Of a stretch of DNA of 64,000 nucleotides, positions 49,923 through 64,000 are shown in pieces. Under the pieces are notes generated by a model that was not told the DNA's origin, did not search any database, and saw only the letters and a program-made list of their open reading frames with translations. The first letter of the stretch is position 1. Every line of letters starts with the position of its first letter. Source of the DNA: Ardenticatena maritima (GTDB taxonomy: Bacteria; Chloroflexota; Anaerolineae; Ardenticatenales; Ardenticatenaceae). The translations under genes were made by a program, and so were the position numbers. Location of the stretch: positions 372,001 to 436,000 of the forward strand of contig NZ_LGKN01000004.1 of NCBI RefSeq assembly GCF_001306175.1, written 5' to 3'.

Positions 49923-49976
49923 GCAAAAGTCCTCCTTAGAGATGTTTAGAGCTGTGGCATATCCTCGTGCAAAATT

Positions 49977-50005
49977 ATTCTAACAAACCTTTCCTCTTCT
50001 GTATA
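49977..50005 (-). promoter_or_regulatory. Promoter of the 63-aa gene
   Basis: TATACA, 17 bp, TAGAAT on the minus strand, start near 49970. Confidence 0.55.
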
Positions 50006-50006
50006 G

Positions 50007-50041
50007 GTACACGTGTACTCAATTCATGAGTACATTTGTAC
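50007..50041. promoter_or_regulatory. 35-bp dyad operator, site B
   Basis: GTAC-N4-GTAC-N11-GTAC-N4-GTAC; the first half is a perfect 12-bp palindrome, GTACACGTGTAC. One base separates it from the -35 hexamer at 50000-50005. Confidence 0.75.
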
Positions 50042-50294
50042 TCATTGCTTTTTTGAAAATTCTAACTATTCACATGCACCATCTTCTTCTCACTTTCCCC
50101 ACCACAATAAAAAACCGCCTCCCAACAGAGGAAGGCGGTGGTTTTCTTTCCCCACTATGAAACAATAAAACACGTCTAAAGTCCCCAGCGGACCGGATCG
50201 AACACATCGTCTTGGAATATCACCTCCCTTGTCCGCCTGCTTCCATAGAGGCGATATCCCTCAACTGGGCATCGCTTCAGTCGAACGGCCTCAT

Positions 50295-50998: not shown

Positions 50999-51014
50999 TT
51001 ATATGCAAAAAATT

Positions 51015-51043
51015 ATTCTAACAAACCTTTCCTCTTCTGCATA
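51015..51043 (-). promoter_or_regulatory. Promoter downstream of operator C
   Basis: TATGCA, 17 bp, TAGAAT on the minus strand; start near 51008, reading toward the 153-aa gene. Confidence 0.5.
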
Positions 51044-51044
51044 G

Positions 51045-51079
51045 GTACACGTGTACTCAATTCATGAGTACATTTGTAC
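51045..51079. promoter_or_regulatory. 35-bp dyad operator, site C
   Basis: Same 35 bp as site B, with GTAC tetramers at 51045, 51053, 51068 and 51076, and a 1-bp gap to the -35 hexamer. Confidence 0.75.
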
Positions 51080-51144
51080 TCATTGCTTTTTGAAAATTCT
51101 AACTATTCACATGCACCATTTTCTTCTCACTTTCCCCACCACAA

Positions 51145-51177
51145 TAAAAAACCGCCTCCCAACAGAGGAAGGCGGTT
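51145..51177 (-). terminator. Terminator of the branched-chain amino acid operon
   Basis: On the minus strand AACCGCC ... GGCGGTT with TTTTTT after it, 22 bp past the cimA stop. It is also the right end of repeat copy 2. Confidence 0.75.
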
Positions 51178-51198
51178 TGCGTTTAAAACGCTGTGCAC

Positions 51199-52776
51199 TC
51201 AGGCTTCCTGCACGACCGGCTCCATCACCCACAAGCCATACTCGACGCTATCGGCAAGCGCCTGCCACGACGCTTCAATAATATTGCCGGAGCATCCCAC
51301 CGTCGTCCAGAGGCGACTGCCACACCGCGTATCAATCAACACACGGGTGGTGGCGGCCGTGCCATTGTTGCCGTCCAAAATGCGCACTTTGTAGTCGCTC
51401 AACTCGAACGAATCCACTTGCGGGTAGAATGGGCGCAATGCCTTGCGCAGCGCCGCGTCCAATGCGTTGACGGGACCGTTGCCCTCGGCGGCGGTGTGCA
51501 CCACTTCATCGCCCACACGCACTTTGACGCTCGCCTCGGCCAGTAAGCCGCGCCCTTCACGGTTCTCTACAACGGTGAAGAAGTCCACCAATTCAAACGG
51601 TGGGCGGTAATCGGGCATGGAACGGCGTACCAACAACGCCACCGACGCTTCGGCGGATTCAAACGAGAAGCCCTGCGCTTCCAACTCCTTGATACGGCGC
51701 ACAATGCGGCGGGCGTGCTCTTTGTCCAGCGTTTCGGGCAAGCCCAATTCGCCTGCTTTGTAAAGGATGTTGCCCTTGCCCGCCAGTTCCGAAACCAGCA
51801 CGCGCGTGCGGTTCCCCACCAATTCCGGCTCGATATGCTGATAACTCTCGCGGCATTTGACTGTCGCGTCGGCGTGCAACCCCGCTTTGTGCGCAAAGGC
51901 GCTTTGCCCCACGTAGGGCTGGTGGGTGTCGTGCGCCAGGTTGCAAATTTCGGCAACCGTGCGAGAGACATCGGTCAAGCGGCGCAACTGGTCATCCGTC
52001 ACGCAATCAATGCCCATTTTGAGTTTCAGGTTGGCAATGGTGGAAATCAAATTGCAATTCCCCACACGCTCACCATAGCCGTTGATCGTGCCCTGCACAT
52101 GTGTAGCGCCCGCACGCACCGCCGCCAACGCATTCGCCACCCCCACATCGGCGTCGTTGTGCGTGTGAATGCCAATGCGCACCGGCACGGCTTCCACGAC
52201 CGCCCGCGTCATGGCTTCGATATCCCAGGGCATGGTGCCGCCGTTCGTATCGCAGAGCACCACCGTCTCCGCGCCATTCTCGGCGGCCGCCTGCAACGTC
52301 GCCAGCGCATAGGCGGGGTCAGCGCGGTAGCCGTCGAAAAAGTGTTCGGCGTCGTAAATCACGCGCCGCCCGTGCGCTACCAGGTAGCGCACAGTCTCGC
52401 CAATCATGCGCAAATTCTCTTCCAGCGAGACGCGCAGCACTTCATGCACATGCAACGTCCACGTCTTGCCGACGATCGTGACAACCTCGGTTTCGGCGTC
52501 AAGCAAGGCTTGCAAATTGGGGTCGTCTTCGGGGGCAAGACCGGCGCGCCCCGTATAACTGAACGCGCACACTTTCGCCGTGCGCAACGGCAACTCGCGG
52601 ACACGTCGAAAATACTCGGCATCCTTGGGGTTTGAACCAGGCCACCCACCTTCGATGTAGTGCACGCCCAAATCATCCAGCAAGCGCGTAATTCGCAGTT
52701 TATCATCCACCGAAAGAGAAATACCTTCGCGCTGTGTGCCGTCTCGAAGGGTGGTGTCGTACAATTCTACAAACAT
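51199..52776 (-). CDS. cimA: (R)-citramalate synthase
   Basis: 525 aa. Condenses pyruvate and acetyl-CoA to citramalate, the threonine-independent entry to isoleucine. HMGL-like TIM barrel (about 1-270): LYDTTLRDGTQREGISLSVDDK with catalytic Arg/Asp, CDTNGGTMPWDIEAM and GIHTHNDADVGVANALAAV with metal-binding His pair. The linker and C-terminal LeuA allosteric dimer domain (about 390-520) follow. It is closer in pattern to citramalate synthases (TQREGISLS, GGWPGSNPKD) than to the leuA in this operon. GCAGGAG precedes ATG 52776. Last gene of the operon. Confidence 0.92.
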   Translation of the reverse strand: MFVELYDTTLRDGTQREGISLSVDDKLRITRLLDDLGVHYIEGGWPGSNPKDAEYFRRVRELPLRTAKVCAFSYTGRAGLAPEDDPNLQALLDAETEVVTIVGKTWTLHVHEVLRVSLEENLRMIGETVRYLVAHGRRVIYDAEHFFDGYRADPAYALATLQAAAENGAETVVLCDTNGGTMPWDIEAMTRAVVEAVPVRIGIHTHNDADVGVANALAAVRAGATHVQGTINGYGERVGNCNLISTIANLKLKMGIDCVTDDQLRRLTDVSRTVAEICNLAHDTHQPYVGQSAFAHKAGLHADATVKCRESYQHIEPELVGNRTRVLVSELAGKGNILYKAGELGLPETLDKEHARRIVRRIKELEAQGFSFESAEASVALLVRRSMPDYRPPFELVDFFTVVENREGRGLLAEASVKVRVGDEVVHTAAEGNGPVNALDAALRKALRPFYPQVDSFELSDYKVRILDGNNGTAATTRVLIDTRCGSRLWTTVGCSGNIIEASWQALADSVEYGLWVMEPVVQEA

Positions 52777-52841
52777 GGTAGCACTCCTGCACCAGTTGAA
52801 GATTGGGCTTCTCCCAATCTCGGATTGTCAAACGAGCCGTT

Positions 52842-53927
52842 TCATGCAGAAGGCGCCTTTGCCCGTTCTTTGAGCCGTGCCACCACCGCCGCGCCCATCT
52901 CGCTTGTTGAAACGACTTCCTCGCCCTGGCGGGCAATGTCCGCGGTGCGATAGCCGTCCGCCAACACCTGCGCCACGGCGGCTTCCACAGCATCGGCTTC
53001 TTGCGCAAGGTGGAGCGAGTAGCGCAACAGCATGGCGGCGCTGAGAATGGTCGCCAGCGGATTGGCGATGTTGCGCCCGGCAATATCGGGTGCTGAACCG
53101 TGGATTGGTTCATATACGCCGCACGTGCCTTCACCCAGCGAGGCGCTTGGCAACAAGCCCAACGAGCCGCTGAGCATCGAAGCCTCGTCCGTGATGATGT
53201 CGCCAAACATGTTGCCGGTGACAATCACGTCGAAATCGCGTGGGCGGCGGAGCAGGTGCATGGTCGCGGCGTCAATCAGCATGTGTTCCAGCGTCACGTC
53301 GGGGAATTCTTCACGCATGACGCGCGTGGTCACCTGCCGCCAGAGCCGCGAAGAAGCCAGCACATTGGCTTTGTCCAGGCTGGTGAGCCGCCCACGGCGT
53401 TGGCGTGCCAGTTGCGCCGCCAAACGCACAATGCGCTCAATTTCAGGCGCCGTGTAGAGCATGGTGTCGTACGCCACGCCGTTGGTCGGTTCCAGACGCG
53501 GACCAAAATAGATACCGCCTGTGAGTTCACGAATCACCAGAATATCAGCCCCTTCCACAATCTCCGGGCGAAGGGGCGAGGCGTCCAGCAATTGGGGAAA
53601 AATGGTCACAGGGCGCAAGTTGGCAAACAAGCCCAGTTCTTTGCGCAGGCGCAACAAGCCTTGTTCAGGGCGTACAGGGGCTTCGGGCGGCCATTGGGGA
53701 CCGCCAACAGCGCCCAACAACACCGCATCGGCGCGGCGGCACGCTTCCAGGGTTTCATCAGGCAGGGGCGAACCGGTGGCATCAATCGCCGCACCGCCTG
53801 CAAGATGTTCTTCAAAAGTGAACGTATGCCCAAACGTTTCGGCTACGGCTTGCAAAACGCGCACAGCCTCGCGCGTCACTTCGGGACCAATGCCATCTCC
53901 GGGGAGAACAACGATTGTTGCATTCAT
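52842..53927 (-). CDS. leuB: 3-isopropylmalate dehydrogenase
   Basis: 361 aa. Oxidatively decarboxylates 3-isopropylmalate, and very probably 3-methylmalate from the CimA route. N-terminal [16 protein letters not shown], active-site [22 protein letters not shown] with catalytic Lys, and [24 protein letters not shown] followed by [18 protein letters not shown], the NAD-binding region. ATG 53927 is used; upstream codons are not family-like. The ribosome-binding site is poor (GAGACGG). Confidence 0.94.
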
Positions 53928-54094
53928 GGCAAAAGCCGTCTCGCTTTCGTTGGTTGTTTGATTCAAGGTCTGCCGTTCACAGCGGGAGACAGGAAGCGGG
54001 GCAACCACTTGCTCACCCGGTTCCAGCCTCCCACTGCGCATTGACACCGCGGGGGCGATGAAGGATACAGGTCATCAGCCTCCCTTTCCACGCG

Positions 54095-54167
54095 TTTTCC
54101 ACACCGTTGGCGTTGTTGTCAACACCTATCCACAACGTTATTCACAATGAAAACGGCGTTATCCACA
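54095..54167 (+). other. Cluster of four DnaA-box-like nonamers
   Basis: In one orientation: TTTTCCACA (54095), CTATCCACA (54126), TTATTCACA (54138) and the perfect TTATCCACA (54159). They sit in the 430-bp gap between leuD and leuB, the largest gap in the operon. No dnaA gene or clear AT-rich unwinding region is adjacent. Confidence 0.55.
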
Positions 54168-54168
54168 T

Positions 54169-54270
54169 TCAGCCGTAGTAGGCTTGCAGCATGTCGCTGG
54201 CGTATGTTTCGTCGGTCGGCTTCTTCGGTTCGCTCTTCGGTTTCTTCACGTCGGTCTTTTGTGCCGCCAT
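54169..54270 (-). CDS. 33-aa lysine-rich microprotein between leuD and leuB
   Basis: ATG 54270 behind AAAGGAGTGG, TGA at 54169. Composition: seven Lys, several Pro and Asp/Glu, then a hydrophobic-aromatic end (MLQAYYG). The basic, disordered first 20 residues and the short amphipathic tail suggest a binding peptide or a translated leader for leuB. No known family. Its stop codon lies next to the last DnaA-box-like site. Confidence 0.5.
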   Translation of the reverse strand: MAAQKTDVKKPKSEPKKPTDETYASDMLQAYYG

Positions 54271-54356
54271 CGTTCCACTCCTTTCGGCATACACGTCAAC
54301 AGGTCAACACAACAGGTACAGCAAACGAGGGTACGCCCCCGCGGTGTCCCTACGGC

Positions 54357-54866
54357 TCAGGAAACGGCGCTTTCGCGCGCTTTCAGGTATTCGAGATAGC
54401 CCCCCGCTTCGCGCACTTTGAGCGCAAAGTCGGGCAAGGGGGCGAATGTGAGCGTTTGCCCGGTGCGGGTGTTGGTCAGCGTGCCGGCGCGCAAATCCAC
54501 CACCGCCTCATCGCCCGTCTCGAAGGCGTCAGCGGCGCCGGGCACTTCCAGCGCCAAAAAGCCGTTGTTGATGGCGTTGCGGTAGAAAATGTTGGCGTAA
54601 TTGTCGGCAATCACCAGCGCCACACCCGCCGCCTGCAACGCCCACACGGCATGCTCGCGGCTACTGCCGGTGCCGAAGTTCTTGCCCGCAATCAGGATGT
54701 CGCCCGGTTGCACTTTCTTGGGAAACTCAGGGTCCAGGTCTTCCATGGCGTGCAAGCCCAGGTATTCGGGATCATCGCTGGTGAGATAGCGCGCCGGGAT
54801 GATTTCGTCGGTGTTGATGTGGTCGCGGCGATAGACATGCACGCGACCGCGAATTGTTGCGCTCAT
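54357..54866 (-). CDS. leuD: 3-isopropylmalate dehydratase small subunit
   Basis: 169 aa, swivelling domain of isopropylmalate isomerase. Key motifs: YRRDHINTDEIIPARYL, where the loop decides substrate specificity, and LIAGKNFGTGSSREHA for binding. The archaeal-type short form pairs with the short LeuC. Start ATG 54866 follows GAGGAGG; an ATG at 54884 includes that ribosome-binding site. It may also process citramalate. Confidence 0.93.
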   Translation of the reverse strand: MSATIRGRVHVYRRDHINTDEIIPARYLTSDDPEYLGLHAMEDLDPEFPKKVQPGDILIAGKNFGTGSSREHAVWALQAAGVALVIADNYANIFYRNAINNGFLALEVPGAADAFETGDEAVVDLRAGTLTNTRTGQTLTFAPLPDFALKVREAGGYLEYLKARESAVS

Positions 54867-54880
54867 TGGTGGTTGCCTCC

Positions 54881-56182
54881 TCATGCGCTCAGTTGGGTTG
54901 CGGTTTCAGTCAGGAATTCGCGCGGGTCGGTGATTTCGCCGGCCACAGCGCTGGCGGCCACAACCGCCGGGCTTGCCAGGTAAATCTGCGCCGACGGGTG
55001 CCCCATGCGGCCGGTGAAGTTGCGGTTGGTGGACGAGATACACACATCATCCGGACCGAGGACGCCGGTGTGCATGCCCAGGCACGCCCCGCACGAGGGG
55101 TACGAAACGGTTGCGCCGGCTTCCACAAAGACTTCAATCAAGCCCTCGCGCAACGCCTGCTTGTAGATGGCTTGTGTGGCCGGAACAACAATCATGCGCA
55201 CATGGTCGGCAATGCGCCGCCCACGCAAGATGTTCGCCGCAATGCGCAGGTCGCTGATGCGCCCATTCGTGCAACTGCCCAGGTAGGCCTGGTCAATGCG
55301 AATGCCCCGCGCGTCGCTGATGGGGTGCCCATTGCCGGGGCGGTTGGGGAACGCCACCACCGGTTCCAACTCGCTCAGGTTGACCTCGATGCGTTCGGCG
55401 TAGTGAGCGTCGGGGTCGGGTTCAAAGATGCGCCAGCGCTCTTCAGGCGTCCCTTTTTCACGCAAGTAGGCTTGCGTCACGTCGTCGGCGGCGACGATGC
55501 CCGTCATGCCGCCGGCTTCCACCGCCATGTTGGTCAGGGTGAAGCGCTCTTCCATGGAGAGCGTCGCCATACCGGGACCGCCCCACTCCATCGCCATGGA
55601 GCGCGCGCCGTCGTCGCCAATGCGGCGGATGACTTCGAGGATGATGTCTTTGGCATAGACGCCCGGCTGCAACTCGCCCACCAGGTCAATACGCAAGGTT
55701 TCAGGCACTTTCAGCCAGAAGGTGCCGGCGTAAATCGCGCCCGCCAGGTCGGTTGAACCGACGCCTGTGGCAAACATGCCCAGCGCGCCGGCGTTGGGCG
55801 TATGCGAATCGCCCGAGACCACCACTTCACCCGGCGCAGGCAAGCCGCTCGCTTCAAACACGGTATGCGCGATGCCGCCGCGCCCCACATCGTACCAGTG
55901 CTTGATGCCATGCTTCTGCACCCACGCTTTCAGGCGCTGATACAGCCGCGCCGAGGCAATATCCTTGGCGGGCACCGTGTGGTCGGGCACGGCTACCACC
56001 CGCTCAGGGTTCCACACGCGGTCCATGTCGCGCTCTTCAAGCATGCGAATGGCGACCGGCGTGGTGATTTCATGCGCCAGCACCCAATCCACGGGCACTT
56101 CCAGCAATTCACCGGGGCGCACCACATCACGCCCAACTTTGGCTGCCAAAATCTTTTCGGCCAGAGTCATCGGTTGCGTCAT
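54881..56182 (-). CDS. leuC: 3-isopropylmalate dehydratase large subunit
   Basis: 433 aa, aconitase superfamily, of the short homoaconitase/archaeal LeuC type. [4Fe-4S] ligands are Cys in [15 protein letters not shown] and two in [31 protein letters not shown] is the other family block. GAGGGA upstream of ATG 56182. 14 bp separate it from leuD. Confidence 0.94.
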
Positions 56183-56217
56183 TGGTTCATTCCCTCACTC
56201 GTTGACATTCGGTTGAT

Positions 56218-57870
56218 TCAAGCGGTTGTTTCTTCAGCCTTGATGACGACTTCGGCTTGGGCGTCGCTTTGCGCCGCCAGCAGTTTGTTCAACGCCTGCA
56301 CGTAGGCTTTGGCGCTCGCGACGATGATGTCCGTATCCACGCCACGCCCGATGTAGACGCTACTGCGTGAACCGGTTTGCGGGTTGACGCGCTCGCTCCC
56401 CTCACCGCCGCGAATGCGCACGGTCACATCGCCCACAGCGTCAATCCCTTCGGTCACGCTTTGCACGCTGTATTCGAGCAGGTTGTTGGGCACGCGCACA
56501 ATTTCGCGAATAGCGCGGTAGCACGCATCCACGGGACCTGTGCCGATAGCGGTGGCGGTCTGTTCCCGCCCCTCTTCATCGCGCAGGGTGACGGTAGCGG
56601 TGGGAATGTTGGAATTTCCCGCCAGCACCTGCACGCGCACCAACTGCCACGTTTCTTTGGGCTGGTAGAGTTGGTCGCCCACCAGCGCCATGATGTCGGC
56701 GTCGGTGACGTACTTCTTCTTGTCGGCCAGTTCCTTGAAACGGCGGAACGCTTCGTTCAACTGCTCCTTGTTCAAGTGGAAGCCCAACTGTTCCAGGCGC
56801 ACACGGAAAGCGTGGCGTCCGCTGTGTTTGCCCAGCACCAGGCGGCTTTCGGGCACGCCCACCGTCGCGGCGTCCATGATTTCGTAGGTGCGCTTGTGCT
56901 TCAACATGCCGTCCTGGTGGATACCCGCTTCGTGGGCAAACGCGTTCGCGCCCACAATGGCCTTGTTCGGCTGAACGACAATGCCGGTGTAGCGGCTTAC
57001 CATGTCGCTCGTGCGGTAAATTTCCTGCGTGACGATATTGGTGCGCAGGTTGAAGTAATCGCGGCGCACGTAGAGCGCCATGACAACTTCTTCCAGTGAA
57101 CAGTTGCCCGCGCGTTCACCAATCCCGTTGATGGTACATTCCACCTGGCGCGCCCCCGCTTTGACACCAGCCAGCGCATTGGCGACCGCCAGCCCCAAGT
57201 CGTTGTGCGTGTGCACCGAGATGATGACTTCCCCCCGCTCGACTTTGGGTTTCAGGCCGGGGGTGTTTTCGATAATGCCGGCAATCAACGCGCCAAATTC
57301 TTCCGGCACGGTGTAGCCGACCGTGTCGGGGATGTTGAGCGTGGTTGCGCCCGCTTCAACCGCCGCCGCCAGCACTTCATACAAGAAGCGCGGGTCGCTC
57401 CGTCCGGCGTCTTCGGGTGAAAATTCCACGTCGTCGCAAAATTGCTTGGCAAAGGCCACCATTTCGCGCGTGGTGGCGACGACTTCTTCGCGCGTCATGC
57501 GCAGTTTGTACTGCAAGTGAATGTCGCTGGTGGCGATGAAGGTGTGAATGCGCGGTTTTGCGGCGTGGCGCACCGCTTCCCACGCTTTGCTGATATCGTC
57601 ACGGTTGGCGCGCGCCAAGCCGGCGATGATGGGACCGTCGGGCGTGCCCACGGTGCGGGCAATCGCGGCAACGGCTTCCAGGTCGCCGGGGGAAGCGGCG
57701 GGGAAGCCGGCTTCGATGACGTCCACATTCAAACGCGCCAACTGTTTCGCGATTTCGATTTTTTCGTGTGTGTGCAGCGTTGCACCCGGTGATTGCTCGC
57801 CATCGCGCAAGGTCGTATCGAAAATGCGGACAACGTCAGATTCGATTGAAATAGTCGGTTGCTGGCTCAT
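56218..57870 (-). CDS. leuA: 2-isopropylmalate synthase
   Basis: 550 aa. Condenses 2-oxoisovalerate with acetyl-CoA, the first step of leucine synthesis. Catalytic barrel: [19 protein letters not shown], metal-binding [16 protein letters not shown], and [16 protein letters not shown]. The C-terminal regulatory dimer domain (about 395-530) is complete, so leucine feedback is likely. GAAAGGAG precedes ATG 57870. The 161-bp gap to pyk contains no clear terminator; a strong ribosome-binding site there (AAAGGGGGTGG) precedes a poor short frame. Confidence 0.94.
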
Positions 57871-58031
57871 GGGGTTGTGCTCCTTTCCTGTTCAACTTGG
57901 TTTTGGGTGAACTTGCATGCCGACGGTGACCCAAAAGGCCAGAAAGGTCATCTTCGCGCATGGCACCACCCCCTTTCGCCAGAATCTCTTGGCATCTGAG
58001 AACTCCTTGCTCTTTCTTCACACCGGGTCGG

Positions 58032-59156
58032 TCAAAGTCCTTGCGTCACCCTCACGGGCACGCTGTACGGCATGGGATCGCGGGTTTCTTTGAGCAAGTG
58101 GCGCAAGACGCCCGGCGAGGTGGTAATCGGCGTATCCAACTCGCGCTCGACGCGCTCGATGATGGTGCGCATCATCGCCACGGCTTCCACCGGGTAGCAT
58201 CCGGTCGCTGTCTCGCCGGAGAGCATGACGGCGGTTGTGCCATCCATCACGGCGTTGGCGACATCGCTCACCTCGGCGCGGGTTGGGCGCGGGTGGTGTT
58301 CCATGCTCGCCAGCATTTGCGTCGCCGTGACGACGGGCTTGCCCGCACGGTTGCACCGCCGAATGATACGCTTTTGCACCAGGGGCACCTCTTCGGGGGG
58401 CAGTTCCAGCCCCAGGTCGCCGCGCGCCACCATCACCCCATCCGCCGCGGCGATGATGTCATCGAGATGTTCAACGGCTTCGCGCGTTTCGATTTTCGCC
58501 ATGAGACGCGGCGTCGCGCGCCCTTGGCAGACCGTCGTCAACGCCGCGCGCGCCTGCTCAATATCGCTCGCCGAACGGACGAACGAAACCGCAACCCACT
58601 CAACCCCCAGCGAGACGGCAAACGCCATGTCGCGCAGGTCTTTGGCGCTCAGGGCGCTTGCGTGTTGGTGCTGTCGCCCTGGGGGCAAGGTCAAGCCCTT
58701 GTGCGAGGTCAGGTGGCCGCCGGTGCGCACCCGGCAGACCACCCGCTCATCGTCGCACGCTTCCACCGTCAACGCGATGAGGCCGTCGTCCAACAGAAGC
58801 GTATCGCCCGGCGCAACATCCAGGCTGACACCGGGGACGGGGATATCGCAAGGCACGTGGTCGGCGTGCGCCGAAAGCACCACTGCTTGCCCCGGCTGCA
58901 AATCAAGCCCACGCCCCACATCGCCAATCCGCACTTTCGCGCCCTGCAAATCTGCCAACAACAGGACGCGCCGCCCCTCCGCCTCTGCGGCGGCGCGCAC
59001 ACGGGCGGCCATTTCCGCATGAGTCTCATGCGTGCCATGCGAGAAGTTGAGCCGCGCCACATCCATGCCGGCCGCAACCATGCGACGCAAGGTCTCGTGT
59101 GTCCAGCATGCGGGACCGATGGTGGCAATAATTTGCGTTTTGCGTGAAGACCTCAT
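58032..59156 (-). CDS. pyk: Short pyruvate kinase lacking the C-terminal domain
   Basis: 374 aa; typical enzymes have about 470. A and B domains are complete: [20 protein letters not shown] with the substrate Arg, metal site in [13 protein letters not shown] and [15 protein letters not shown], and the signature [20 protein letters not shown] then LSGETATG. The protein ends about 50 residues later without the C domain that binds allosteric sugars. The gene is intact, not frame-shifted: only 160 bp separate it from leuA. Start ATG 59156 follows GGAAGGGGAAAC, 25 bp after ilvC. Presumably makes pyruvate for IlvB and CimA, without normal allosteric control. Confidence 0.88.
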
Positions 59157-59181
59157 CGCGTTTCCCCTTCCAAGGTTGGTT

Positions 59182-60216
59182 TTATTGCTGTTCGGTTTCG
59201 GGCACGGGTTCCGGTTCGATTTCCACCGGCTTGACAAAGGGCATCATGCGGCGCAAGCGGCGCCCCACTTCTTCGATGGGGTGGCGCTGTTCTTCGGCGC
59301 GGCGCTTGTAGAAGGTCGGGCGCCCCTGGGCGTTTTCTTCAATCCACTGCTCGGCAAACGCGCCGCTCTGAATGTCGGCGAGCAGTTGCTTCATCGCTGC
59401 GCGGCTCTGCTCGTTGATGACACGCTTGCCGGCGTGGTAGTCGCCGTATTCGGCCGTATCACTCACCGAGTAGCGCATGTACGACAGCCCACCCTGGTAG
59501 AACAAATCCACGATGAGTTTGAGTTCGTGCAAGCACTCGAAGTAGGCCACTTCGGGCTGGTAGCCGGCTTCCACCAGCGTCTCGAACCCGGCTTTGATCA
59601 ACTCCGCCACGCCGCCGCACAACACGGCTTGCTCGCCGAAAAGGTCGGTTTCGGTTTCCTCGGCGAATGTGGTTTCGATGACGCCGGCGCGGGTGCACCC
59701 GATGGCTTTGGCATAGGCGAGGGCGTCTTCCTTGGCGTGCCCCGTCGCATCCTGATAGACCGCCATCAACGCCGGCGTGCCTACGCCTTCGACGTAGAGT
59801 TCGCGCACACGGTGGCCGGGCGCTTTGGGGGCGACCATGCTCACGTCCACGCCCTCAGGCGGCACAATCTGCCCGTAGCGAATGTTGAAACCGTGCGCGA
59901 ACATGAGCGTGTTGCCCGGCTGCAAGTTGGGCTTGATGTCGCGCTGGTAGACTTCGGCTTGCTTCGTGTCGGGAATCAGCACCATGACGATGTCCGCTTC
60001 GGCGACGGCTTGCGCCACAGGCACCACACGCACTCCGTCGGCTTCGGCTTTCTGCCAACTGCGGCTGCCTTCATACAGCCCCACACGCACGTCAACGCCG
60101 CTATCGCGCAGATTGAGGGCGTGCGCATGCCCCTGGCTTCCGTAGCCCAACACGGCGACTTTGCGCCCTTCCAAACGTTTGATGTCGGCGTCCTGGTCGT
60201 AGTAAATCGTTGCCAT
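59182..60216 (-). CDS. ilvC: Ketol-acid reductoisomerase (class I)
   Basis: 344 aa. NAD(P)-binding [20 protein letters not shown] with a basic/phosphate-binding loop after ([14 protein letters not shown]), and the metal-binding knotted domain with [19 protein letters not shown] and the acidic [19 protein letters not shown]. Rearranges and reduces acetolactate or acetohydroxybutyrate. The tail is acidic ([13 protein letters not shown]). AGGAGG precedes ATG 60216. Confidence 0.95.
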
Positions 60217-60261
60217 TCCTGCAATCCTCCTGTTTGATCGAAAAGTTTTGTTGGTTGTTGC

Positions 60262-60768
60262 TTACAAAATAGTGAATTGGTGAGCAGGCTCGCTTGAACC
60301 GCGCGCCATCGCCACCAATCCGGTACGCATCATTTCCAAAATGCCGTAGGGGCGCAGCCCCTCGATGAACGACTGCACTTCATCCTCTTCGCCCGTCAGT
60401 TCCAGAATCATGCTGTCGGCGGAAATATCGGCGACTTTGGCTTGAAACGCTTCCGCCAGGCGCAGCAGGTCGGCGTGGGTTTCACTGTCGGAGCGCACCT
60501 TGACCAGCACCAGGTCGCGCTGGACGGCGGGGCGGTGTGTCAGGTCTTCCACGTCAATCACGTTGATGAGTTTGAGCAGATTGCGCTGGACCATCGACGC
60601 GTCGGTTTTGGACGCATCCACCACGATTGTCATGCGCGAGACGGCGGGGTCTTCGGTTTCGCCCACCGTCAGGCTGATGATGTTGAAGTTGCGGCGGCGG
60701 AAGAGGCTCGCCACGCGGTTCAGCACGCCGGGCTTGTTTTCGACACGAGCAACGAGAACGTGTTTCAT
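60262..60768 (-). CDS. ilvN: Acetolactate synthase small (regulatory) subunit
   Basis: 168 aa with two ACT-like halves: [25 protein letters not shown] is the N-terminal valine-binding ACT domain, and the C-terminal half ends [15 protein letters not shown]. It confers valine sensitivity and stabilises IlvB. The ATG overlaps the ilvB stop (ATGA), so the subunits are made in a fixed ratio. Confidence 0.95.
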
Positions 60769-62480
60769 GAGTGCACCTCCGTGCGTTCGTTCGCCAGCGG
60801 GCGGCGAATCATGTTGTGCAAATCGGCGCCGGACGGCACCATGGGATAGACCATCTCCTCGCGCTCAACCACAAAGTCAATCAGCGCGGGACCATCTACC
60901 GCGCGCGCGGCTTCGATGGTGGGCAAAACGTCTTCGCGCCGTTCCACGCGGAAGGCGGGGATACCGTAGGCTTCAGCCAGTTTGACGAAATCGGGGTTGA
61001 CCAGTGGGGTGGCGTTGTAGCGCCGCCCGTAGAAGATTTCCTGCCACTGGCGCACCATGCCCAGATAGCCGTTGTTGATGATGGCGATACGCACACGGCG
61101 CTTTTCCTGCACGGCGGTCGCCAATTCGCACAGCGTCATCTGGAAGCCGCCGTCGCCAACAACCGCCCAAATCTCCTCATCGGGGCGCGCGAACGAAGCG
61201 CCGATGGCCGCCGGCAACGCAAAGCCCATCGTCCCCAAACCGCCGCTGGTGATGAGTGAGAAGGGGCGTTCGTGGTGGTAGTACTGCGCTTCCCACATTT
61301 GGTGTTGCCCGACGTCCGTCACCACGGTGGCTTGCCCATGCGTGGCTTTCCAGAGGTCGTGGATGACGTGCACCGCCCAGAGTTTGTCGCCGCTCTCCAC
61401 GTTCAAGATGTCGCGGCGGCGGGTGTCTTCGCGCCATTCATCAATGCGCGCCAACCAGGCCGAGCGGTCGCGTGGTTCGACATGGGGGAGCAGATGTTGC
61501 AGCACTTCGCGCAAGTCGCCGATGATACCCACGTCCACTTTGACGTTCTTGTTGAGTTCGGTGGGGTCAATTTCGATGTGGATTTTGCGGGCTTTGGGGG
61601 CATACGTTTTGACATTGCCGGTCACGCGGTCGTCAAAGCGCATGCCGAACGCCAACAGCAGGTCGGCTTCTTGAATCGCCTGGTTGACGTAGGCTTCACC
61701 ATGCATCCCCATCATGCCCAGGCAGAGCGGGTGCGAGGCGGGGAAGTTCCCCAACCCCAGCAAAGTTTGCGCCACGGGGATTTGGGCTTTTTCAGCGAAT
61801 TCGCGCAGTTCGCGCATGGCGTTGCTCATCAACACACCATGCCCGGCCAGAATCACGGGGCGTTCCGCCGAGTTGATGAGTTTGATGGCTTGCTCAAACT
61901 GCTCCGGTGGAATCACTGTTTCGGGGCGATACCCCGGCAAGCGAATTTCGCTTTCGTCGGGGAAGACAAATTCAGTCGTGGCGTTCTGCACATCTTTGGG
62001 AATGTCAATCAGCACCGGCCCGGGGCGACCAGAACGGGCAATGTGGAAGGCTTCGCGGATGATGTAGGCGAGGTCGCGCACGTCGGTCACAAGGTAATTG
62101 TGCTTGGTGACGGGGAGCGTGACGCCGGTCACGTCGGTTTCCTGGAAGGCGTCGGAGCCAATCGCTGAGGTGGGCACCTGTCCGGTGATGCACACGATGG
62201 GCACAGAGTCCATCATGGCGGTCGCCAAACCGGTGACCATGTTGGTCGCGCCGGGGCCGCTGGTTGCCATGGCCACCCCCACCTTGCCGCTGGCGCGGGC
62301 GTATCCATCAGCGGCGTGGGTTGCGCCCTGTTCATGTCGCACCAGCACGTGGTGGATTTGGGGGTATTTGCTCAGGGCATCGTAGGTAGGCAAAATGGCG
62401 CCGCCCGGATAACCAAAGACCACTTCCACGCCTTCGCGGATGAGACATTCCCAAATGATTTCTGCGCCTGTGAGTTGCAT
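60765..62480 (-). CDS. ilvB: Acetolactate synthase large (catalytic) subunit
   Basis: 571 aa thiamine-diphosphate enzyme. Catalytic Glu in [18 protein letters not shown], the FAD-binding central domain, and the diphosphate/Mg2+ motif [15 protein letters not shown] ... [12 protein letters not shown]. Makes acetolactate from two pyruvates or acetohydroxybutyrate with 2-oxobutyrate. ATG 62480, with AAAGGAG upstream and an attenuator-like leader before it. First gene of the operon. Confidence 0.96.
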
Positions 62481-62510
62481 ACCATCTACTCCTTTTCAGG
62501 TTGGTGAACC

Positions 62511-62561
62511 AAACAAAAACGCCCGCCAACATGCTCCCCCCGTTGGGATGCTGTGGCGGGC
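62511..62561 (-). terminator. ilv leader terminator (attenuator)
   Basis: On the minus strand GCCCGCCA ... TCCC ... GGGA ... TGGCGGGC with an internal loop, then GTTTTTGTTT. It ends 31 nt before ilvB. It also contains CCCAACG, complementary to CGTTGGG in leader region 1. Confidence 0.75.
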
Positions 62562-62596
62562 ATCAACGCCCTTTCCGAAACGACTTCACAAACAAT

Positions 62597-62624
62597 CAGG
62601 GCCTCCCGCGTTGGGGAGGCCCTG
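62597..62624 (-). promoter_or_regulatory. ilv leader hairpin 2:3
   Basis: Perfect 11-bp stem CAGGGCCTCCC / GGGAGGCCCTG, loop of 6. Its 5' arm and loop can instead pair, 16 of 17 bases, with 62667-62683 inside the leader peptide codons 28-33. Confidence 0.7.
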
Positions 62625-62648
62625 TCGTGACCTTGTGCGTGTGTGCCG

Positions 62649-62765
62649 CTACCATCCGGTGCTCGCGGCCTTCCCAACGCGGGCTGGCTCCTTGCCAATA
62701 ATAATGACAAGGAGCGAAAGAAGGACGACAAGCACCAGGTTGAGAAGGACGAGCGGCACAAACAT
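62649..62765 (-). CDS. ilv leader peptide, 38 aa, rich in Val/Leu/Ile
   Basis: ATG 62765 with AGGAGC at 8 nt, stop TAG at 62649-62651. Residues 3-23 hold 9 Leu, 6 Val and 3 consecutive Ile (IIIG at the end); the rest is basic (GKEPARVGKAASTGW). It starts about 32 nt after the predicted transcript start of the ilvB operon. A ribosome stalled for lack of charged branched-chain tRNAs would sit just before RNA region 1. Alternative reading: a small membrane protein; position and RNA structures favour a leader. Confidence 0.8.
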   Translation of the reverse strand: MFVPLVLLNLVLVVLLSLLVIIIGKEPARVGKAASTGW

Positions 62766-62803
62766 GTGAACTGCTCCTGCTCGGTTTTCGTTTCGTTGCG
62801 AGC

Positions 62804-62833
62804 ACTATAACAAAAAGCACAAACCAGTGTCAA
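62804..62833 (-). promoter_or_regulatory. Promoter of the ilv-leu operon
   Basis: Consensus TTGACA, 18-bp spacer, TATAGT on the minus strand, start near 62797. One of the best matches to consensus in the window. Confidence 0.75.
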
Positions 62834-62981
62834 GGGGGTATGGCACCAAATGGCACGAAGACTACCCGCATGGGTACTACCTCTATCCCTTTTTACCACG
62901 CCCTGCCGGCGGTGCATATTCGCGCCTCTGGCGCGATTCGATAGAATGCTCGCGCCATAGCAGAGAGAGGAGTGCCGTTTG

Positions 62982-64000
62982 ATGCGATACATGCGCCGAA
63001 TCAATCAAACATGGGTTTCGTGGGTGAGCGTGCTGGTTCTTCTGGCGCTGTTGGGGCTGGCAGTGCCCGGCATCGGCTACACGCACGACGGGTATTTTCA
63101 TGCGTACCGCATTTTGGGCTTGCGTGAAGCGCTGACACAGGGCGTATGGTATCCGCGCTTTTTCCCAGAGTTTTCGTTTGGATATGGGTTTCCGGTGCTG
63201 CACTACTACGCGCCGCTGGCGTATTACGTGGGGGTGCTCCCCTTGCTGGTCGGGCGCGGGGCGGCGCTGGCGCTCGATTTCTCGTTTGCCGTTGCGGTGG
63301 TGCTGGCGGCGTGGAGCATGGGGTGGCTGGTGTGGCGGCTCTGGCGGCATCAAACGGCGGCGCTGCTAGCCGCGCTGACGTACACGTATTTGCCGTATCA
63401 CCTGGCGGATATTTACCAACGGGGGGCGCTGGCTGAAACATGGGCGTTTGTGTGGTGGCCGTTATTGCTAGGCGCAGTGTGGGAACACCGCCTGGTGTTG
63501 CTCGCCATAAGCACCGCTGGCCTTCTCTTGACGCATAACCTGTCGGTCCTGCTCATTCTTCCGGTGATTGGGTTGTGGATGCTGGCGCTGGCCATACAAG
63601 AGCGAAAAGTCGTCTGGCGGCGATGGGCGCAATTGATCGGTGCGGCGCTGGTCGGCAGTGGGGTCGCGGCGTTTTATTGGATGCCCGCCCTGTTGGAGAT
63701 GAAGTGGGTACGTGTTGGGCATGAACGCGGTAGTATTGATCCGACAGAATTTCTCGCTCCACTCCACCAACTCTCTCAACTGGAACCCAAGATTTTTTTG
63801 AAGGGGATTTTCTTCCACCCGGTCCAAATGCTTCTGCTGGGGAGCGTGCTTGTGTTGCTGGTGCTCTTCTGGGCGCACCTGCGCCACCGCCTGCTGGTGG
63901 GGGTGATGGCGGGCGTCTTGCTCATCACCTACGTGTTGCAAACGCCTTGGGCTGCGCCGCTTTGGCGCATGGTCGCGCCACTCCAATGGCTTCAATTCCC
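62982..64000 (+). CDS. Large polytopic membrane protein, C-terminus cut by window edge
   Basis: ATG 62982 preceded by GAGAGGAG; 339 residues in the window, frame still open. The first transmembrane helix is at about 13-30, followed by an outer loop with HDGYFHAYRILGLREAL and YPRFFPEFSFGYGFPVLHYY, a pattern of the 6-pyruvoyl-tetrahydropterin-synthase-related membrane domain and YfhO-like proteins. At least seven more hydrophobic helices follow. Probably a GT-C-fold envelope glycosyltransferase. Divergent from the ilv leader. Confidence 0.75.
   Translation, partial: MRYMRRINQTWVSWVSVLVLLALLGLAVPGIGYTHDGYFHAYRILGLREALTQGVWYPRFFPEFSFGYGFPVLHYYAPLAYYVGVLPLLVGRGAALALDFSFAVAVVLAAWSMGWLVWRLWRHQTAALLAALTYTYLPYHLADIYQRGALAETWAFVWWPLLLGAVWEHRLVLLAISTAGLLLTHNLSVLLILPVIGLWMLALAIQERKVVWRRWAQLIGAALVGSGVAAFYWMPALLEMKWVRVGHERGSIDPTEFLAPLHQLSQLEPKIFLKGIFFHPVQMLLLGSVLVLLVLFWAHLRHRLLVGVMAGVLLITYVLQTPWAAPLWRMVAPLQWLQF

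Follow-up and report, generated by a model that had tools for sequence, protein, structure and literature searches.

A probable leader-peptide attenuator ahead of the ilv-leu operon of Ardenticatena maritima and its counterparts in Anaerolineae

Actinobacterial ilvB leaders possess a Val/Leu/Ile ORF before ilvB along with a terminator, an antiterminator and an anti-antiterminator (PMC1262725, PMC10272879, PMC11857589). The models given for them are that of Seliverstov et al. 2005 (PMC1262725), the Corynebacterium ilvB-II motif (PMC10272879) and a three-hairpin model (PMC11857589). Among these papers, a pausing role was proposed for the hairpin inside the ORF of the C. glutamicum ilvB leader. 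In a similar ilvB leader of Streptomyces coelicolor, changing the candidate codons had no effect (PMC1262725), and experiment therefore matters for leaders of this kind. Attenuation by leader ORFs has been argued to be common for ilvB, and the ilvB-OMG and ilvB motifs were re-read as leader ORFs (PMC10272879), and ribosome-mediated attenuation has thereby been proposed for ilvB beyond the model phyla too. The ilv leaders of Staphylococcus aureus and Listeria also encode a branched-chain leader peptide outside Proteobacteria and Actinobacteria (PMC5794164, PMC5864092).

The locus analyzed here is situated upstream of ilvB in Ardenticatena maritima, on the minus strand at 62833-62511 of the window, which is the whole 64-kb stretch of DNA under analysis. 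A promoter, a ribosome-binding site, a Val/Leu/Ile-rich leader ORF and mutually exclusive RNA pairings are all found ahead of ilvB. The element is very probably a classical, ribosome-mediated transcription attenuator of ilvBNC-pyk-leuACD-leuB-cimA, and the enzymes of branched-chain synthesis are probably made only when Val, Leu and Ile run short. With the Proteobacterial attenuators (ilvGMEDA, ilvBN, leuABCD, trp, his; Leu_leader RF00512) it has in common a leader peptide with codons for the pathway product, ribosome position as the input, a strand shared by terminator and antiterminator, and a hairpin in the ORF. No sequence relation to them was seen, however, and here the ORF hairpin adjoins the antiterminator arm without overlapping it. 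Compared with the Actinobacterial leaders, it belongs to another phylum and shows a longer ORF, other pairings and a much longer overlap of terminator and antiterminator. No Rfam match to families such as ilvB-OMG and ilvB was found in the window or the sampled relatives, while the Staphylococcus and Listeria leaders differ in belonging to Firmicutes and in having CodY as an additional sensor. At gathering score, no family of Rfam 15, Leu_leader included, matched the window or 20 relatives. A search at permissive thresholds gave only chance-level matches in the window and one sub-threshold match in a relative. As an earlier note on this DNA had supposed, no description of an ilv leader attenuator in Chloroflexota was found in Rfam or in the open literature. 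A survey of attenuation by Lopatovskaya, Seliverstov and Lyubetsky from 2010 is reportedly relevant to Chloroflexi.

Organization of the ilvB leader region

The elements of the locus and of the operon behind it are as follows, in window coordinates.

62861-62878, strand not given: palindrome AGTACCCATGCGGGTAGT, candidate operator, about 28 nt upstream of the -35 element
62804-62833, minus: sigma-70-type promoter TTGACA-18-TATAGT, from consensus scan and conservation in five genomes
62774-62778, minus: Shine-Dalgarno sequence AGGAG, 8 nt ahead of ATG
62649-62765, minus: leader ORF of 38 codons, MFVPLVLLNLVLVVLLSLLVIIIGKEPARVGKAASTGW, with regulatory Val/Leu/Ile codons 3-23, from sequence and survey
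62687-62715, minus: hairpin inside the ORF, GCTCCTTGTCA/TGGCAAGGAGC, 11 pairs and 7-nt loop, complementarity kept in relatives; candidate pause hairpin for RNA polymerase
62676, minus: predicted RNA polymerase pause at U with G next, 11 nt past the ORF hairpin, deduced from spacing
62667-62683, minus: region 1, 5' arm of the antiterminator, CCCGCGTTGGGAAGGCC, codons 28-33, from pairing, conservation and resampling
62605-62621, minus: region 2, 3' arm of the antiterminator and also 5' arm and loop of T1, from pairing and conservation
62597-62624, minus: T1, predicted attenuator terminator hairpin with a perfect 11-bp stem, CAGGGCCTCCC-CAACGC-GGGAGGCCCTG
62587-62596, minus: T-rich tail of T1, ATTGTTTGTG, weaker than its counterparts in the sister genus
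62511-62561, minus: T2, hairpin GCCCGCCA...TGGCGGGC with tail GTTTTTGTTT; candidate back-up terminator or 5' stabiliser
51199-62480, minus: controlled unit ilvB-ilvN-ilvC-pyk-leuA-leuC-leuD-leuB-cimA, from NCBIfam matches
51149-51178, minus: operon-end terminator after cimA, 12-bp stem and TTTATTGTGG

The earlier note, made from the letters of the sequence, had described a near-consensus promoter, a 38-codon frame with a ribosome-binding site, a pairing of regions 1 and 2 and an 11-bp hairpin of region 2 with region 3, and all of these were found in place. The promoter matches the consensus at 11 of 12 positions (one site seen against 0.4 in shuffles). The frame has Val, Leu or Ile at 18 of the 21 residues from 3 to 23. 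Dinucleotide shuffles of the leader region reached at most 12/21 in 1000 tries, and no other stretch in any of the six frames of the window has at least 17 of 21 such residues. Regions 1 and 2 are complementary at 16 of 17 bases and form the best inverted repeat of the region, above the 14 of 17 paired bases which 200 shuffles of the leader region reached at most. The 2:3 hairpin is perfect, spans 62624-62597 and includes region 2. Region 2 can thus pair alternatively with region 1 or region 3, and terminator and antiterminator share a strand. These elements and their mutually exclusive pairings are direct observations.

The earlier note had treated the 2:3 hairpin as separate from the terminator and had suspected an unusual layout on this ground and because region 1 can also pair with CCCAACG in that terminator. 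The analysis does not support this layout. T1 is the only strong terminator-like site in 62400-63100, as the other match (62440-62425) falls within ilvB. Its homologues in the sister genus carry the tails TTAACTTTTTC, TTAACGTTTTC and TCAATGTTTTG, which are good U tracts, and the 2:3 hairpin is therefore itself the predicted terminator of the attenuator. Thus an intrinsic terminator precedes ilvB, the first structural gene; its tail is weak in this genome but good in the sister genus. As the U tract of T1 (ATTGTTTGTG) is poor in this genus, it may terminate weakly here, and T2 may matter. The terminator noted 31 nt before ilvB does exist as the T2 hairpin with its U tract (GTTTTTGTTT at 62520-62511, about 30 nt ahead of the gene), while its role as the attenuator terminator passes to T1. 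T2 is retained as a strong hairpin of differing sequence in five genomes, and only in this genus does a good U tract follow it. Region 1 is indeed complementary to CCCAACG of the T2 loop, at 11 of 12 positions in this genome. As a functional part of the switch this pairing was rejected, as it is not conserved and is broken in the congener (G001), which has CCCCACG. A view of T2 as the remnant of a second leader module, like those of tandem relatives, was also unsupported, there being no ORF between T1 and T2.

The hairpin inside the ORF (62715-62687) was absent from the earlier description. It is composed of the last Leu/Val codons plus Gly-Lys-Glu and ends 11 nt before GTT|GGG. Upstream of the promoter, the palindrome at 62861-62878 resembles the operator of a dedicated regulator and is a candidate for such a site outside the RNA switch. 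In relatives its form ACTACCC-N4-GGGTAGT is perfect in four genomes, with a single site per genome, always at the ilvB promoter, and the copy in the window has one arm base altered.

The attenuator plausibly governs the whole nine-gene operon, as the earlier note had proposed, because a scan of both strands of 51000-62500 gave no consensus promoter, and the first strong terminator on the minus strand of these same-strand genes comes after cimA. Some other features of the operon were also observed. The pyruvate kinase encoded at 58032-59237 has 401 aa and matches model positions 1-339 of 476, the C-terminal domain being missing. A 41-aa ORF between leuD and leuB (54169-54294) has no NCBIfam match. 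A 170-nt segment is present in two copies (49971-50139 and 51009-51176) with 97-99% identity, and the second copy contains the operon-end terminator; it is a candidate duplicated terminator or small mobile repeat. A leader was also looked for at ilvD of the same genome (C5:579567), where it is absent.

Conservation of the leader in relatives

Within the family, this genome was compared with four other Ardenticatenaceae which carry the element, among them the congener G001 and the metagenome-assembled genome G004 (JALSKA010000104.1). The relatives compared, here and in the class, are mostly metagenome-assembled genomes. All five family genomes keep CCCCCTTGAC and TATA of the ilvB promoter and the leader ORF with its internal hairpin (GCTCCTTGTC...GGCAAGGAGC). 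The terminator GGCCTCCC-AACGC-GGGAGGCC is likewise conserved, as is GCGTTGGGA, the arm of the antiterminator. Between the congeners, all 24 four-fold degenerate sites of the leader are unchanged, against 167 of 289 (58%) in ilvB. Five leader codons (2, 4, 6, 37 and 38) have changed, all of them non-synonymously and outside the paired segments. Judged on these comparisons, the leader is conserved as RNA rather than as protein, because fixed four-fold sites with exclusively non-synonymous changes are the opposite of what a protein-coding sequence is expected to show. In the leader peptides of relatives, I, L and V interchange freely, and the length and N-terminus vary. The C-terminal part GKE..RVG recurs among relatives, and the 38-aa peptide found no match in Pfam.

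In the class, ilvB was found in 280 of 396 genomes and 113 upstream regions were analyzed. A region counted as positive when it had an ORF in which 12 residues included at least 9 Val/Leu/Ile, with an intrinsic terminator downstream, not more than 75 nt past the stop codon. This arrangement was present in 106 of the 113 regions and in none of the reverse strands, which served as the control; the regions were drawn from the best ilvB matches and are therefore not a random sample of the class. Of the seven regions without it, several lie on truncated contigs. In other Chloroflexota outside the class the leader was found in 18 of 54 upstream regions (control, 1). The terminator complementary to region 1 is, class-wide, the first one past the ORF. 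In those relatives which were opened, the leader is followed by ilvE-ilvB-ilvN-ilvC or ilvD-ilvB-ilvN-ilvC, ilvE and ilvD being named by eye from the sequence. In comparisons of related ilvB upstream regions, leader codons and complementary pairings are conserved. The central claim of the earlier note, a leader-peptide attenuator for the ilv-leu operon, is thereby supported: the Val/Leu/Ile run and the pairings are kept in relatives while the peptide sequence drifts, and no case for a 38-aa protein kept without the RNA structures emerged.

Two controls bear on the pairings. Antiterminator duplexes formed with the leader's own terminator arm have a mean of -21.5 kcal/mol, against -16.2 kcal/mol with swapped arms (z = -20; 129 unique leaders, 5000 permutations). 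The second control resampled synonymous codons in 58 leaders whose ORF contains region 1. The antiterminator energy went from -22.9 kcal/mol observed to -16.3 kcal/mol (z = -19) and the score of the ORF hairpin from 18.8 to 12.0 (z = 13.7). In this genome, 60 resamplings scored for the hairpin and 30 for the duplex all fell short of the observed values. Constraint at synonymous sites is thus seen directly.

The ORF hairpin has changed in sequence with its complementarity kept, as in GCTCCTTG/CAAGGAGC, CCTCGTC/GACGAGG, GGTTCTCG/CGAGAACC and GGTCCTTA/TAAGGACC of relatives. The distance from its 3' end to (T)T|G of region 1 is 9-11 nt in 63 of 96 leaders, with 11 as the mode, and the mean stem score in relatives has its maximum at a spacing of 11-12 nt. 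Taken together, these distances in relatives have their peak at 10-12 nt. For hairpin-stabilised pauses, the distance from hairpin to RNA 3' end is 11-12 nt, or 10-13 nt when stimulated by NusA (review, PMC12288461). From this spacing we infer a pause site at 62676 which may let the ribosome catch up with RNA polymerase. A purely geometric cause of the fixed spacing, with the ORF hairpin packed against the antiterminator helix, is also conceivable.

Pairs of complete leader-peptide attenuator modules, arranged in tandem upstream of a single ilv operon, were observed in L070 (2493-2784), L071 (7821-8158), L086 (7614-7965), L140 (6309-6592), L146 (3758-4042) and L343 (490-880), and also in G231. 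The tandem attenuators of Salmonella mgtCBR (PMC3641672) likewise have two leader ORFs in series; they sense other signals, and the window holds a single module. Outside Chloroflexota, a Val/Leu/Ile leader ORF with a terminator was also seen before ilv operons of Acidobacteriota (L095, L097, L098, L113) and Verrucomicrobiota (L126, L130, L143).

Predicted folding, mechanism and alternative readings

The predicted fold of the leader RNA is decided in silico by the position of the ribosome. When the ribosome sits upstream of region 1, stepwise folds of the five genomes have region 1 paired with region 2 (-31 to -35 kcal/mol) while region 3 is still to be made. Once the ribosome is at the stop codon, T1 is the only one of the two structures left to form (-20 to -22 kcal/mol). 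Partition functions of 136 leaders gave at least 6 expected antiterminator pairs in 99% of the stalled states and 0% of the stop states, of which the stalled state, taken with the swap and synonymous controls, is the informative part because region 1 is left out of the stop state by design. When the whole leader was folded at equilibrium with the ribosome footprint masked, an approach superseded by the stepwise folds, T1 was favoured in almost every state. With the upstream RNA free, the minimum-energy fold at equilibrium in this genome is T1 and not 1:2, and the switch therefore depends on timing. Thus, of the folding with and without a ribosome footprint which the earlier note had proposed, the stepwise form shows the switch between 1:2 and T1 while the equilibrium form mostly shows T1. 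In a model with no ribosome, region 1 is partly hidden by upstream RNA (10.6 expected pairs here), as it is on average in the class. Termination by default is thus weakly predicted for this genome and mixed among relatives; the step is weak because the model gives another outcome for the congener G001.

From these folds and the conserved layout we infer stalling, pausing, termination efficiency and the amino-acid response at the ilvB leader as follows. Transcription would start at about 62797 and a ribosome would then translate the 38-codon leader, the ORF hairpin probably pausing RNA polymerase and giving the ribosome time to catch up. When charged Val, Leu and Ile tRNAs are ample, the ribosome would reach the stop codon (62651) and cover region 1; region 2 would pair with region 3 as T1, and transcription would end before ilvB. 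Should any of the three run low, the ribosome would wait within codons 3-23 and leave region 1 free to capture region 2 before region 3 is made, so that T1 would be blocked and the whole operon read. If no ribosome is present, upstream codons could hold region 1 and T1 would form.

Among other explanations, the one with the largest claim is that attenuation works mainly through T2 (62561-62511), under region 1 or another element, with T1 as an auxiliary or pause hairpin. It draws on the better U tract of T2 in this genus, on its position 31 nt before ilvB, on the pairing of region 1 with its loop here and on the retention of the hairpin in five genomes. We regard it as unlikely: that pairing does not hold up in the congener, in the sister genus it is T1 that carries a good U tract and T2 a poor one, and throughout the class it is the first terminator after the ORF which is complementary to region 1. 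Translational or Rho-dependent control, in which the leader governs access to the ilvB start or to Rho and not an intrinsic terminator, would also fit the weak U tract that T1 has in this genus. Leader ORFs in other systems can act through Rho, which counts in its favour. This is decidedly improbable, as in 106 genomes of the class the leader is succeeded by an intrinsic terminator with a U tract, and neither T1 nor region 1 overlaps the ribosome-binding site of ilvB.

Since the peptide has the hydrophobic character of a membrane segment and a recurring C-terminal GKE..RVG, it might be asked if the ORF encodes a real small membrane protein with ordinary terminators around it. Conservation at the nucleotide level (24/24 four-fold sites, all changes non-synonymous between congeners), the interchange of I, L and V, the variable length and N-terminus, the lack of a Pfam match and the presence, in nearly all genomes of the class, of a complementary terminator and an ilv operon behind the ORF make this very improbable. 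A T-box or another ligand-binding riboswitch in place of a ribosome sensor is hardly credible at all. T-boxes are indeed abundant, being found in all 120 class genomes searched and seven times in this genome, but the ilvB upstream locus has no T-box (RF00230) match, the window has no Rfam T-box or riboswitch match even at sub-threshold level, and a T-box would leave the leader ORF and its codon constraint unexplained.

Meaning for Anaerolineae

The ribosome-mediated attenuator is a mechanism of known kind. Its description in Chloroflexota appears to be the new part, and its near-universal occurrence in the examined part of the class is well supported. A further proposal is tentative, and we incline slightly against it: that in a class-wide design of Anaerolineae type, the regulatory Leu/Val codons form an RNA polymerase pause hairpin whose end lies a fixed 10-12 nt ahead of the first G in the antiterminator arm, parking the polymerase until the ribosome arrives, and that two serial modules in some lineages give a two-step reading of branched-chain amino acids. 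The coupling of polymerase and ribosome has been studied mainly in E. coli and B. subtilis, and the fixed spacing of the ORF hairpin makes it a testable prediction in another phylum. Relatives with tandem modules provide a natural setting in which to ask why a single operon would need two sensors. Leader-peptide attenuation of branched-chain synthesis is hereby extended to nearly every examined genome of a large and mostly uncultured class, in which the attenuator stands beside T-boxes in the same genomes, and this supports the view that ilv control of this kind is widespread and not confined to a few phyla.
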